Part shown: positions 59,411-64,000 of the stretch, piece by piece
Position numbering within the stretch: the first letter of the stretch is position 1
Layout: each line of letters begins with the position of its first letter
NCBI RefSeq assembly: GCF_900112255.1
Contig: NZ_FOLE01000005.1
Coordinates: 1-64,000 of the forward strand
Source of the DNA: Flexibacter flexilis DSM 6793
GTDB lineage: Bacteria; Bacteroidota; Bacteroidia; Cytophagales; Flexibacteraceae
DNA length: 64,000 nucleotides
Direction: 5' to 3'
Notes under the pieces: generated by a model
Databases searched by the model: none
What the model saw: only the letters and a program-made list of their open reading frames with translations
What the model was told of the DNA's origin: nothing
Made by a program: the position numbers and the translations under genes

Positions 59411-60103
59411 ATGATACAATTTTTGAAAAAGGTCAAACGTCTTTTGGGCGTTATGGCCACCTTATTGAAAGCGAATCGCAAGACTATTTACTTCAATTTT
59501 AAATACTTACCGTTTCGTCAGGCCCTTCGGCTCCCCATCAACGTATCATCGCAAGTTCACTTAGCCCGAATGGGCGGACAAATACAGTTTGATTGTCCGA
59601 TACATACGGGAATGATACAACTCGGACACGGATACGTGGGGATATTTGATAAACAAAAATCTCGGAGTATCTGGGAAGTAACAGGGACTGTTATTTTTGG
59701 GGGTACGGCCAATATTGGTCATGGTTCAAAAATCTGCGTAATGAATGGAACACTGCGTTTGGGTAAGAATTTTACGATTACGGCGGAATCCTCGATTGTA
59801 ACAGCGTGCGAGATTCATTTCGGAGACGATTGTTTGTTGTCTTGGGATGTCTTGGTCATGGACACCGATTTTCATCACATAAAAAACCAGTCAGGCGCAA
59901 TAATCAATGCGCCAAGCCCCATTCGGATCGGCAATAAAGTTTGGATTGGATGCCGCTGCCTCATTTTGAAAGGCGCAGCGATTGCCGACAACACCGTTAT
60001 TGGAGCAAATTCGTTGGTAAGCCGCAAATTGCCCAAAGAAAATGCCATCTATGGCGGCCAACCAGCTCAATTATTGAAAGAAGAAATTAGTTGGGATTAC
60101 TAA
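59411..60103 (+). CDS. Hexapeptide-repeat acyltransferase
   Basis: 230 residues. A left-handed beta-helix (about 80-215) is built from hexapeptide repeats, ending with the catalytic and substrate region MDTDFHHIKNQSG, PIRIGNKVWIGCRCLILKGAAIADNTVIGANSLV and IYGGQPAQLLKE. It resembles the WbbJ/maltose O-acetyltransferase group that acetylates cell-surface sugars. The first 60 residues are basic and probably sit at the membrane. It follows the restriction gene by 36 bases and ends where the 84-bp repeat array begins. Confidence 0.88.
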   Translation: MIQFLKKVKRLLGVMATLLKANRKTIYFNFKYLPFRQALRLPINVSSQVHLARMGGQIQFDCPIHTGMIQLGHGYVGIFDKQKSRSIWEVTGTVIFGGTANIGHGSKICVMNGTLRLGKNFTITAESSIVTACEIHFGDDCLLSWDVLVMDTDFHHIKNQSGAIINAPSPIRIGNKVWIGCRCLILKGAAIADNTVIGANSLVSRKLPKENAIYGGQPAQLLKEEISWDY

Positions 60104-60480
60104 CCCCTCCTAAATCCTCCCCACTGGGGAGGACTTTTAAATATTGCCGCCCCCCATGCGCAGGAACGAAATATCAAAGACTCCTAACCCCTTCTAAATC
60201 CTCCCCAGTGGGGAGGACTTTTAAATATTGCCGCCCCCCATGCGCAGAAACGAAATATCAAAGACTCCTAACCCCTCCTAAATCCTCCCCAATGGGGAGG
60301 ACTTTTAAATATTGCCGCCCCCCATGCGCAGAAACGAAATATCAAAGACTCCTAACCCCTCCTAAATCCTCCCCAATGGGGAGGACTTTTAAATATTGCC
60401 GCCCCCCATGCGCAGAAACGAAATATCAAAGACTCCTAACCCCTCCTAAATCCTCCCCAATGGGGAGGACTTTTAAACCA
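60101..60480. repeat. 84-bp tandem repeat array (about 4.5 units)
   Basis: Four full copies and a part of an 84-bp unit: a palindromic TCCTCCCC/GGGGAGGA module, then GGACTTTTAAATATTGCCGCC and ATGCGCAGAAACGAAATATC. The copies differ mainly at the loop (ACT, AGT, AAT) of the palindrome. The 28-residue phrases translated from it are artefacts. The next 45 bases to the secreted-protein gene hold nothing else. Confidence 0.92.
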
Positions 60481-60525: not shown

Positions 60526-60963
60526 TTACTTCTGCCACTTGGTTACATAAAAAATAGTGTCCGTGCTGCTTTCCGAACCCACAGGACGGGCAAGTTGAGG
60601 GTTTGGGTTGGCGGCGGGCTTTTTCGCTTCAAAATACCCTTCTACGGTTACGTTGCCGCTTATGTCCAAGTCTTCGCCGCCCGCAAGCCTGTCAAAACAC
60701 ACAATAAACCGTTGTGGGGTGTTGCTTCCTGCCTTTGTACCGTCTAAGTAGCCAATATTATAACCCAACACACTCAGCGGGTGCATACGCCCTTTGGCAC
60801 TGTCAAAATTACCTGAGAGCCGAACAGCCGTTTGCTTTTGGGGTTTGGTTTGGGTCAATGATTTTGTTTGGCGGCGGGTTTTCTTTTGCCCTAAAGCCCA
60901 ACTATTGGGTATTTGCGCCACGCACACCAAGGCGACAAGCATTGTATATCCTATTTTTTTCAT
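60526..60963 (-). CDS. Uncharacterised secreted protein downstream of the channel gene
   Basis: 145 residues from the ATG at 60963; a longer frame to 61056 overlaps the channel gene. A signal peptide (MKKIGYTMLVALVCVAQIPNSWA) is followed by a basic Lys/Thr/Gln-rich stretch (about 25-50) and a beta-rich region (about 55-145) containing LSVLGYNIGYLDG, FIVCFDRLAGG and VTVEGYFEAKK. I do not recognise the family. It follows the channel gene by 32 bases on the same strand, so the two probably form an operon and may work together. Confidence 0.6.
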   Translation of the reverse strand: MKKIGYTMLVALVCVAQIPNSWALGQKKTRRQTKSLTQTKPQKQTAVRLSGNFDSAKGRMHPLSVLGYNIGYLDGTKAGSNTPQRFIVCFDRLAGGEDLDISGNVTVEGYFEAKKPAANPNPQLARPVGSESSTDTIFYVTKWQK

Positions 60964-60995
60964 GGGAATAAAGATTTGGGATTCATTGTATAAAG

Positions 60996-61955
60996 TTACA
61001 AAGCCATTAGCACAGACACCACGTTCACGGCCAAATAAATGCCGCCCACTATCCACGCGACGAGGCGGTCGGTGGCGTTGGAAAGTTTCTGTTGTCCGTC
61101 ATCGTCCTGCCGCAACGACAAAGCCGAAAACGCAATAATCACGAATATCATCACAAACGTAAGTCCGTGCAGCGTGTCCACGATGGTAAGCGTAGAAGTT
61201 TCGGGCAAATAACTATCTATCACGTATTTGTTACCGACTGCCGCAAAAAGTCCGCCCACAGGCAAGCCAAAACGCGGTTCGGCATGGCTTGGGTCAATAA
61301 AAAAGCTCACATACGAAATGGCAAAGGCAACATACATTCCCAAAAACAGCTTAAAGAACAAGCCCCACGCGTCGCGCTTAATGGTAATGTTCACGACAAA
61401 CTGCGCGTAATCGGATTCTGGTTTGAGTTGGGTATTATCCCCGAACGCGGTGTTATAATGTGCGCGGCCTGTGTCTATATGAAAGCTCTTGATTTTCCAG
61501 CCGTCCACTTCCAAAGCGGGGTCGTATGACTTACCCAGCGTGTCGGGCACAAAAATCAAGTCTTGTACCATAAATTCGGGGTTTTCTATCTTGATTTTGA
61601 GGGTTTGCTCGTCGAAAGGAAAATTTTGCAAGTTCCAAGCCTGCTTCATCACCGACTTTATTTTGAGTTGCAACCAGCCTTTGCCGTTCAAACTGTCCAT
61701 CATCATATTATCAATCTTGTATTCTTTGGCATCGGGCAGCTCTATCATGTCCGAAGGCTTGTCGATGGGGTGGTCGTGCAACATCCAAAGCCAAAAACGC
61801 GTCGTGTATTGCTCTTCTATGAAATCAAAATCGTGTAGGCTAATAATATAACAACCCACTTTTACGGTGTCGGGGTGATTGTCGTGCGCCGCCCACGCGT
61901 TTGGTTTACCAAGCAAAAAGAAGGCAAGCGAAATAAGAAGTAAAATTCGTTTCAT
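60996..61955 (-). CDS. Pentameric ligand-gated ion channel homologue
   Basis: 319 residues. A signal peptide (about 1-22) is followed by an extracellular beta-sandwich domain (about 30-195) with the hallmark NFPFDEQTLKIKIEN (about 111-125) and W107. Four transmembrane helices follow: M1 about 196-220, M2 about 226-246 (EPRFGLPVGGLFAAVGN), M3 about 252-280 and M4 about 297-319. The M2-M3 loop has YLPETSTLT, including the conserved Leu-Pro of the Cys-loop receptor family. The two Cys-loop cysteines are absent, as in other bacterial members (GLIC, ELIC). It would form a homopentamer in the inner membrane; ligand and ion selectivity are unknown. Confidence 0.82.
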   Translation of the reverse strand: MKRILLLISLAFFLLGKPNAWAAHDNHPDTVKVGCYIISLHDFDFIEEQYTTRFWLWMLHDHPIDKPSDMIELPDAKEYKIDNMMMDSLNGKGWLQLKIKSVMKQAWNLQNFPFDEQTLKIKIENPEFMVQDLIFVPDTLGKSYDPALEVDGWKIKSFHIDTGRAHYNTAFGDNTQLKPESDYAQFVVNITIKRDAWGLFFKLFLGMYVAFAISYVSFFIDPSHAEPRFGLPVGGLFAAVGNKYVIDSYLPETSTLTIVDTLHGLTFVMIFVIIAFSALSLRQDDDGQQKLSNATDRLVAWIVGGIYLAVNVVSVLMAL

Positions 61956-62748: not shown

Positions 62749-63345
62749 ATGAAACAGCCAAAACAATGGATTGCGTGGGTGTTATGCGTCATTTTGGGCA
62801 TAAGTAGTTTTTATTTTTGGAAGAAAAGCCAACCCGACACCAGCACGCGCCGGACCACACACCAAATCCTCCTGACCGAAGTAGAGCATTTGGGTAAAAT
62901 GGAGTTGGTGCGCTATCAGTTCCGCGACATCGTGGAGCATGAGCAAGTAAAACAATGGTTGCCTAACTCGCGTGTATTGCTGATAGTGAGTGGCGAGGCC
63001 GTCGGCTGCTTGGATTTGAGCCAAATAGACAGCACCGACATTAGCGCAGACTCGGCCAACGTAACCGTGTATTTGCCCGAACCTGAAATCTGTTATCACA
63101 AAATAGACCATCAGAAATCAAAGGTTTATAACACCGAATACGCATTCATGGAAGAAGCCCAACTCATCGACGAGGCTTATCGCCATGCCGAAAAACAAAT
63201 CTTGACTTCTGCCCTGCAAGCCAACATCTTAGCGCAAACCAAAGCCAACGCCCAAAAAATATTAGTACCTTTGTTTGCATCGCTTACGGGCAAAAAAATA
63301 CATTTACGCTATCGAAACCGTTTTACTTTACCCCAAAAACACTAA
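62749..63345 (+). CDS. DUF4230 family protein
   Basis: 198 residues. One N-terminal transmembrane helix (about 7-25) is followed by the DUF4230 domain (about 35-185): ILLTEVEHLGKMELVRYQF, NVTVYLPEPEICYHKIDHQKSKVYNTEY and a conserved C-terminal helix. The family is anchored in the inner membrane with an external domain and has no known function. Its stop codon overlaps the start of kdsB by one base (TAATG), so the two are translationally coupled and may share a role in LPS or the envelope. Confidence 0.87.
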   Translation: MKQPKQWIAWVLCVILGISSFYFWKKSQPDTSTRRTTHQILLTEVEHLGKMELVRYQFRDIVEHEQVKQWLPNSRVLLIVSGEAVGCLDLSQIDSTDISADSANVTVYLPEPEICYHKIDHQKSKVYNTEYAFMEEAQLIDEAYRHAEKQILTSALQANILAQTKANAQKILVPLFASLTGKKIHLRYRNRFTLPQKH

Positions 63346-64000
63346 TGTTACATTCCGAACCCAACATATTAGGCATCATTCCCGCACGTTATGCTTCTAC
63401 GCGCTTTCCCGCCAAAGCCCTCGCCAAAATTGGCGGCATTTCGATGATTCAGCGCGTGTACGAGCAAGCCTGCAAAGCCAATTCCCTAAACAAAGTAATC
63501 GTAGCCACCGACCACCCGACCATTTTTGAACACGTGGAGAGCTTCGGCGGTGTGGCCGTGCTTACTTCGCCGCAACACCAAAGCGGTACAGACCGTTGTC
63601 AAGAAGCCTATTTCAATAGCGAATACAAAGCCGACTACATCATTAACATACAAGGCGATGAGCCATTTATCCAGCCCGAACAAATAGACCTGTTGGCCGA
63701 AGCCCTCGACAATAAACCCGAATTGGCCACGTTGGTAAAACAGATTAGCGACGCGGAAACCCTCTTCAACCCAAACACACCTAAAGTGTTGCTCAACAGC
63801 GCACAAGAAGCCATTTATTTCAGCCGCCAAACGCTGCCCTACTTGCGCGGCATTGCGCCCGAACACTGGCTTGAGCACCATACTTTTTACAAACACATCG
63901 GTATTTATGCGTATCGCACGGACGTTTTGGCCAAAATAACACAACTCGAACCCTCGTCTTTGGAGCAAGCCGAAAGCCTTGAGCAATTGCGGTGGTTGGA
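63345..64000 (+). CDS. kdsB: 3-deoxy-manno-octulosonate cytidylyltransferase (N-terminal part)
   Basis: The frame runs off the window; about 218 of an expected 250 residues are present. It starts MLHSEPNILGIIPARYASTR, containing the nucleotide-binding IIPARYASTRFPAKALA of CMP-KDO synthetases. The later IQGDEPFIQPEQIDLL is the metal/CTP-binding signature. The enzyme activates KDO for transfer to lipid A, in the same pathway as kdsD at 6.6 kb. It overlaps the DUF4230 stop codon by one base. Confidence 0.95.
   Translation, partial: MLHSEPNILGIIPARYASTRFPAKALAKIGGISMIQRVYEQACKANSLNKVIVATDHPTIFEHVESFGGVAVLTSPQHQSGTDRCQEAYFNSEYKADYIINIQGDEPFIQPEQIDLLAEALDNKPELATLVKQISDAETLFNPNTPKVLLNSAQEAIYFSRQTLPYLRGIAPEHWLEHHTFYKHIGIYAYRTDVLAKITQLEPSSLEQAESLEQLRWL

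Follow-up and report, generated by a model that had tools for sequence, protein, structure and literature searches.

The window, the whole 64,000-nucleotide stretch of Flexibacter flexilis DNA analysed here, carries two neighbouring genes that are read from the reverse strand. The product of the first, at 60996..61955 (-), is a 319-residue subunit of a pentameric ligand-gated ion channel (pLGIC), here called P0001; this assignment is based on profiles, PDB matches, homologues and a structural model. The second, at 60526..60963 (-), encodes an orphan small secreted-type protein of 145 residues, P0002, which starts 32 bp downstream of the channel stop, the gap lying at 60964..60995 (-). P0001 is laid out as a signal peptide (approximately residues 1-22), an ECD (approximately 24-194) and four transmembrane helices, predicted at residues 197-219, 225-247, 258-285 and 289-318. 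Its N terminus is signal-peptide-like, and its reading frame has a coding score of 0.236 per codon. A preliminary description of this DNA had pointed to a signal peptide, the motif NFPFDEQ, four helices and a Leu-Pro in the M2-M3 loop; in this frame we located the signal-like start, FPFDEQ, four predicted helices and the Leu-Pro.

Just downstream of P0002, over 60100-60477, an 84-bp unit that carries the palindrome TCCTCCCCAATGGGGAGGA is repeated 4.5 times in tandem (98% matches); single copies related to this unit lie near 62.2 and 62.5 kb. At 62749-63998 (+) a gene for a DUF4230 protein is directly followed by kdsB (CMP-KDO synthetase), which is cut by the end of the window. A search of Rfam gave no match within 59-63 kb.

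Family and fold of the channel protein

Single-sequence profile searches matched P0001 to TIGR00860 (E 7.9e-13) and NF033918 (E 1.9e-10), in both cases under the curated cut-off. Searching with PF02931 and PF02932, as the preliminary description had proposed, gave a divided answer. PF02931 reached 25.1 bits against a cut-off of 26, and at E 0.01 it recognises 54 of 59 members of the branch to which P0001 belongs; PF02932 had no match to P0001, the pore region included, and matched only two of the 59. Structures of pLGICs in the PDB were matched at E 6.5e-6 by the single sequence, the proteins found being the GABA rho-1 receptor, the glycine receptor, GluCl and GLIC, and a profile of the 59 branch sequences matched GLIC-type structures over near full length at E 1.1e-14.

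The AlphaFold2 model of P0001, built from the branch alignment, has a mean pLDDT of 91.6. Its single chain is predicted to contain eight strands and four long transmembrane helices, so that the ligand-binding beta-sandwich followed by four helices, the arrangement that characterizes the pLGIC fold and that the preliminary description had expected, was recovered in the model. The top 50 matches of a Foldseek search with this model were all pLGICs (E ~1e-21), and VIA-align superposed it on GluCl with Z 24.5 and rmsd 2.1 over 283 residues, GABA-A, GlyR and GLIC tying with GluCl. P0001 is a genuine pLGIC subunit, the strength of the matches being far beyond chance, and the bacterial pentameric ligand-gated channel first suggested is borne out by profiles, homologues and fold.

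The suggestion of a Cys-loop receptor plan holds for the fold and the motifs but not for the cysteines. P0001 has a single Cys, at residue 35, and none around residues 107-120, so that the flanking disulphide pair of a true Cys-loop receptor is absent, and the protein is properly named a Pro-loop receptor or pLGIC. The Cys-less counterpart of the Cys-loop is the Pro-loop FPFDEQ at residues 112-117, 61605..61622 (-), in which P113, F114, D115 and Q117 are invariant in the 59 sequences. A branch-profile search found one channel copy in the F. flexilis genome, and a homomer is consequently expected; a search of the same genome with PF02931 returned no match, and its controls were silent too.

Among known channels GLIC, the proton-gated channel of Gloeobacter, is like P0001 in being Cys-less and in having a simple ECD with four helices, an acidic -2' ring and a Pro-loop, and the two folds superpose with Z ~23.8 and rmsd 2.4-2.5 at ~17% identity. 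However, P0001 has a shorter stretch from beta-2 to the LPDAK segment, a longer loop C, a glycine-lined M2 with Phe at 9', and Glu124 where GLIC has Ile. ELIC, the amine-gated channel of Erwinia, shares the simple architecture and a Glu in loop B (ELIC Glu131, near the bound primary amine), but P0001 lacks an aromatic residue at the Phe133 position and has a different pore. Animal glycine and GABA-A receptors gave the best single-sequence PDB matches, have a fold Z of ~24 and share the loop B 'ES' Glu, whereas P0001 has neither the Cys-loop disulphide nor the M3-M4 intracellular domain, and is acidic at -2', where these receptors have an anion filter. A pLGIC of Cytophaga hutchinsonii has been listed as being of simple architecture, without extra domains (PMC549065), and according to this listing it is in that architecture that it resembles P0001.

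Relatives and their distribution

A single scan with two motif patterns as query, run over 84,980 species genomes, yielded 182 relatives. Among the best 80 of the 182, 79 carry Bacteroidota names and one is called only 'bacterium', and within these 80 Raineya orbicola stands nearest to P0001, with 66-70% identity and a tree support of 100/89. Branch members in the Cytophaga records L078 and L088 are 47-48% identical to P0001. The branch profile matched 50 of 291 genomes of the window's order, some of these matches being weak and corresponding to more distant pLGICs, and it had no match in any of the ten other genomes of the window's own family. Loss and transfer are both possible explanations of this patchy distribution. 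The channel is a well-supported addition to a known kind of protein, the pLGICs, and its Bacteroidota branch is large but little described.

Tandem pairs of channel genes of this branch were observed in L018, L054, L066, L073, L075 and L082, with gaps of -4 to 167 bases and, in L075, with a small ORF between the copies. The copies in L054, L066 and L082 fall in different clades, which makes heteropentamers possible there. Three channel genes (L128, L129 and L130) occur in a genome that belongs to the genus of Raineya (G351:C1), two of these genes being divergent paralogues with the M2 signature described below. Fused proteins were seen as well. L009:19-1881 encodes a TPR-pLGIC fusion of 621 residues, in which N-terminal TPR repeats (PF00515) precede a pLGIC-like domain; the M2 of this domain, VGALFVAIGNMYFVEASLP, closely resembles that of the P0001 branch. 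Proteins of 715-726 residues in L011, L013 and L014 have a long periplasmic-binding-protein-like N-terminal region fused to the pLGIC; the one protein of this set that was checked against Pfam had no match at E 0.01.

Pore, gating motifs and candidate ligand site

The M2 pore helix and the M2-M3 loop occupy residues 226-253, 61197..61280 (-), from the Glu at -2' to the Thr after LPE (EPRFGLPVGGLFAAVGNKYVIDSYLPET), and M2 itself reads EPRFGLPVGGLFAAVGNKYVIDSYLP; prime numbering follows the LP register of GLIC and GlyR. No other stretch of the channel protein is as conserved as M2, and the Bacteroidota branch has the near-invariant signature RFGLPVGGLFAAVGNKYxIDSxLPE. Positions V5', G6', F9', G13', N14', K15', Y16' and D19' and the LP are invariant in the 59 sequences, and -2' is Glu or Asp in all but one of them (58/59). 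The M2-M3 loop of P0001 carries Leu250-Pro251, and Arg194, just ahead of the first helix (pre-M1), is also invariant in the 59 sequences. Retrieval bias toward the M2 motif was tested on relatives obtained from whole-protein or profile searches without the motif. Among these motif-free relatives every branch member whose M2 was read by the pattern had the signature, and most of the invariant M2 positions recurred. F9', N14', K15', Y16' and D19', together with the binding-site 'ES', are retained even by the divergent paralogues of L129 and L130.

From the M2 sequence the pore is predicted to select cations, to be lined by glycines and to have one ring of Phe at 9', and the acidic ring that cation-selective pLGICs carry at -2'/-1' is found at -2'. 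Pro 4', the Gly at 2', 6' and 13' and the invariant Asn-Lys at 14'-15' are unlike GLIC, so that the conduction and selectivity of GLIC are not directly transferable. The odd M2, with its Pro 4' and invariant Asn-Lys pair, could also belong to a protein that has kept the fold and lost conduction, and that would act as a periplasmic sensor signalling by conformational change; no functional test of this branch was found. Such a sensor appears improbable, however, since M2 is the part under the strongest conservation and its acidic -2' and hydrophobic 9' rings are as in conducting members.

In the extracellular part, Glu124, at 61584..61586 (-), is invariant (59/59). Counted without gaps from FPFD it coincides with Glu131 of ELIC and with the 'ES' Glu of GABA-A rho1 and GlyR. 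A ligand bound to ELIC has its amine near Glu77 and Glu131, and no response was obtained once Glu131 was replaced by alanine (PMC3119659). Trp55 in the loop D region and Tyr167 and Phe171 in the loop C region are invariant as well. Residue 126 is Pro, Thr or Ser in the branch, where ELIC has the loop B aromatic Phe133; this replacement leaves the aromatic box incomplete and makes the amine idea weak. A primary amine or an amino acid, bound through Glu124, is consequently a reasonable but weak suggestion for the ligand of P0001. The channel might instead be gated by protons or other ions, as GLIC is. Among solved structures, versions of GLIC rank best against the branch profile, and the -2' acid is common to both, but the invariant Glu124 stands at the amine-site Glu of ELIC, GlyR and GABA receptors, where GLIC has Ile, and we consider ionic gating unlikely, while granting it a real chance.

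In Raineya-type genomes (L016:8892-10259 and L128) the channel is followed, after gaps of 3 and 40 bases, by a flavin amine oxidase (PF01593, E 6.7e-67) with a twin-arginine-like start. This neighbour fits an amine ligand and is comparable to the annotated decarboxylase held in the ELIC operon, whereas the window's operon holds no decarboxylase. The pattern is confined to the Raineya group, and the oxidase was rejected as a general channel partner; it was not found in the F. flexilis genome, in a search that had no positive control.

The downstream gene and the proposed working of the channel

P0002 is probably a real gene. Its own frame scores 0.100 per codon, as against -0.19 to -0.34 in the other five, a value that falls on the 99th percentile for shadow ORFs and among the lower-scoring real genes in this genome. 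Its N terminus is signal-like, and one weak sigma-70-like match near the gap that precedes it is no more than chance. The protein gave nothing above noise in Pfam, NCBIfam and PHROGs and no plasmid match, in agreement with its first description as a 145-residue protein of no recognized family, on the same strand 32 bases on. Searches through 58 relatives, 295 further genomes of the phylum and its own family brought no believable homologue. A similarity to the T18.1 pilin (E 8.4e-4) dropped to E 0.55 without the K/T/Q-rich N terminus and was rejected as a composition artefact, and one match in the phylum (E 1.7e-4), broken by two stops, was discarded. A single-sequence model (pLDDT 38), with five strands in OB-like order, was too poor for a fold search.

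The preliminary description had also proposed a partnership of the two proteins, and a survey of neighbourhoods for a conserved pair. The partnership is not supported: no P0002-like sequence was found in the 80 channel neighbourhoods fetched, which show no conserved co-occurrence, and P0002 was likewise absent beside further channel genes inspected. A co-directional downstream gene lies within 150 bases at 44 of the 80 loci, its family varying by lineage; judged from sequence, the types include CinA-like, penicillin-acylase-like, subtilisin-like, SRPBCC-like, glycosyltransferase-like and other proteins. The commonest neighbours at the 80 loci, a divergently transcribed membrane protein of 147 aa (47 loci) and an OmpA/PD40 protein (38 loci), reflect stable inheritance in Cyclobacteriaceae-like lineages and are not applicable to the window.

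The common direction and the 32 bp spacing allow co-transcription, with no evidence of joint function. These features, together with the signal-like N terminus and coding-like composition of P0002, would suit a subunit with an accessory, ligand-binding or gating role in the periplasm, and other bacterial pLGICs do have fused or operonic sensors (PBP-I, PBP-II, Cache) (PMC549065). We hold this role to be highly improbable, since none of the other channels inspected has P0002 beside it, since the genomes searched contain no believable homologue, and since Raineya, the nearest relative of P0001, lacks it and has the flavin amine oxidase in that place. A two-protein system is not supported, and P0002 is probably an unrelated or lineage-specific gene that may share the channel transcript.

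Taken as a whole, the locus probably encodes a homopentameric, Cys-less cation channel for a small periplasmic ligand, with P0002 independent of it. By analogy with established pLGICs, P0001 subunits would form a homopentamer in the inner membrane with the ligand-binding domain in the periplasm, and a small ligand would bind where two subunits meet. This ligand may well be a primary amine or amino acid bound through Glu124, which is the weakest element of the scheme. The Pro-loop, the pre-M1 Arg194 and the M2-M3 Leu-Pro loop would relay the movement to M2, and the pore, with Gly 2', 6' and 13' along its wall and the Phe 9' ring shutting it, would open, the acidic ring at -2' selecting cations. 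More tentatively, and with more doubt than confidence, we suggest that the branch may be a pLGIC subfamily of the Bacteroidota that is functionally distinct and so far undescribed. Its members would be amine- or amino-acid-gated cation channels whose pore is lined by glycines and has a single Phe ring, and whose M2 contains an invariant Asn-Lys-Tyr turn that the solved pLGICs in the alignment do not resemble; some would consist of two different, tandem-encoded subunits.

The orphan status of P0002 averts a false claim of an accessory subunit. Bacterial pLGICs are structural models for nerve receptors. As of 2016, the biological role of no bacterial pLGIC had been studied in vivo (PMC4795631). 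A branch with many Bacteroidota members, a highly conserved, unusual pore and a conserved amine-type carboxylate offers a testable entry to the roles of bacterial pLGICs.
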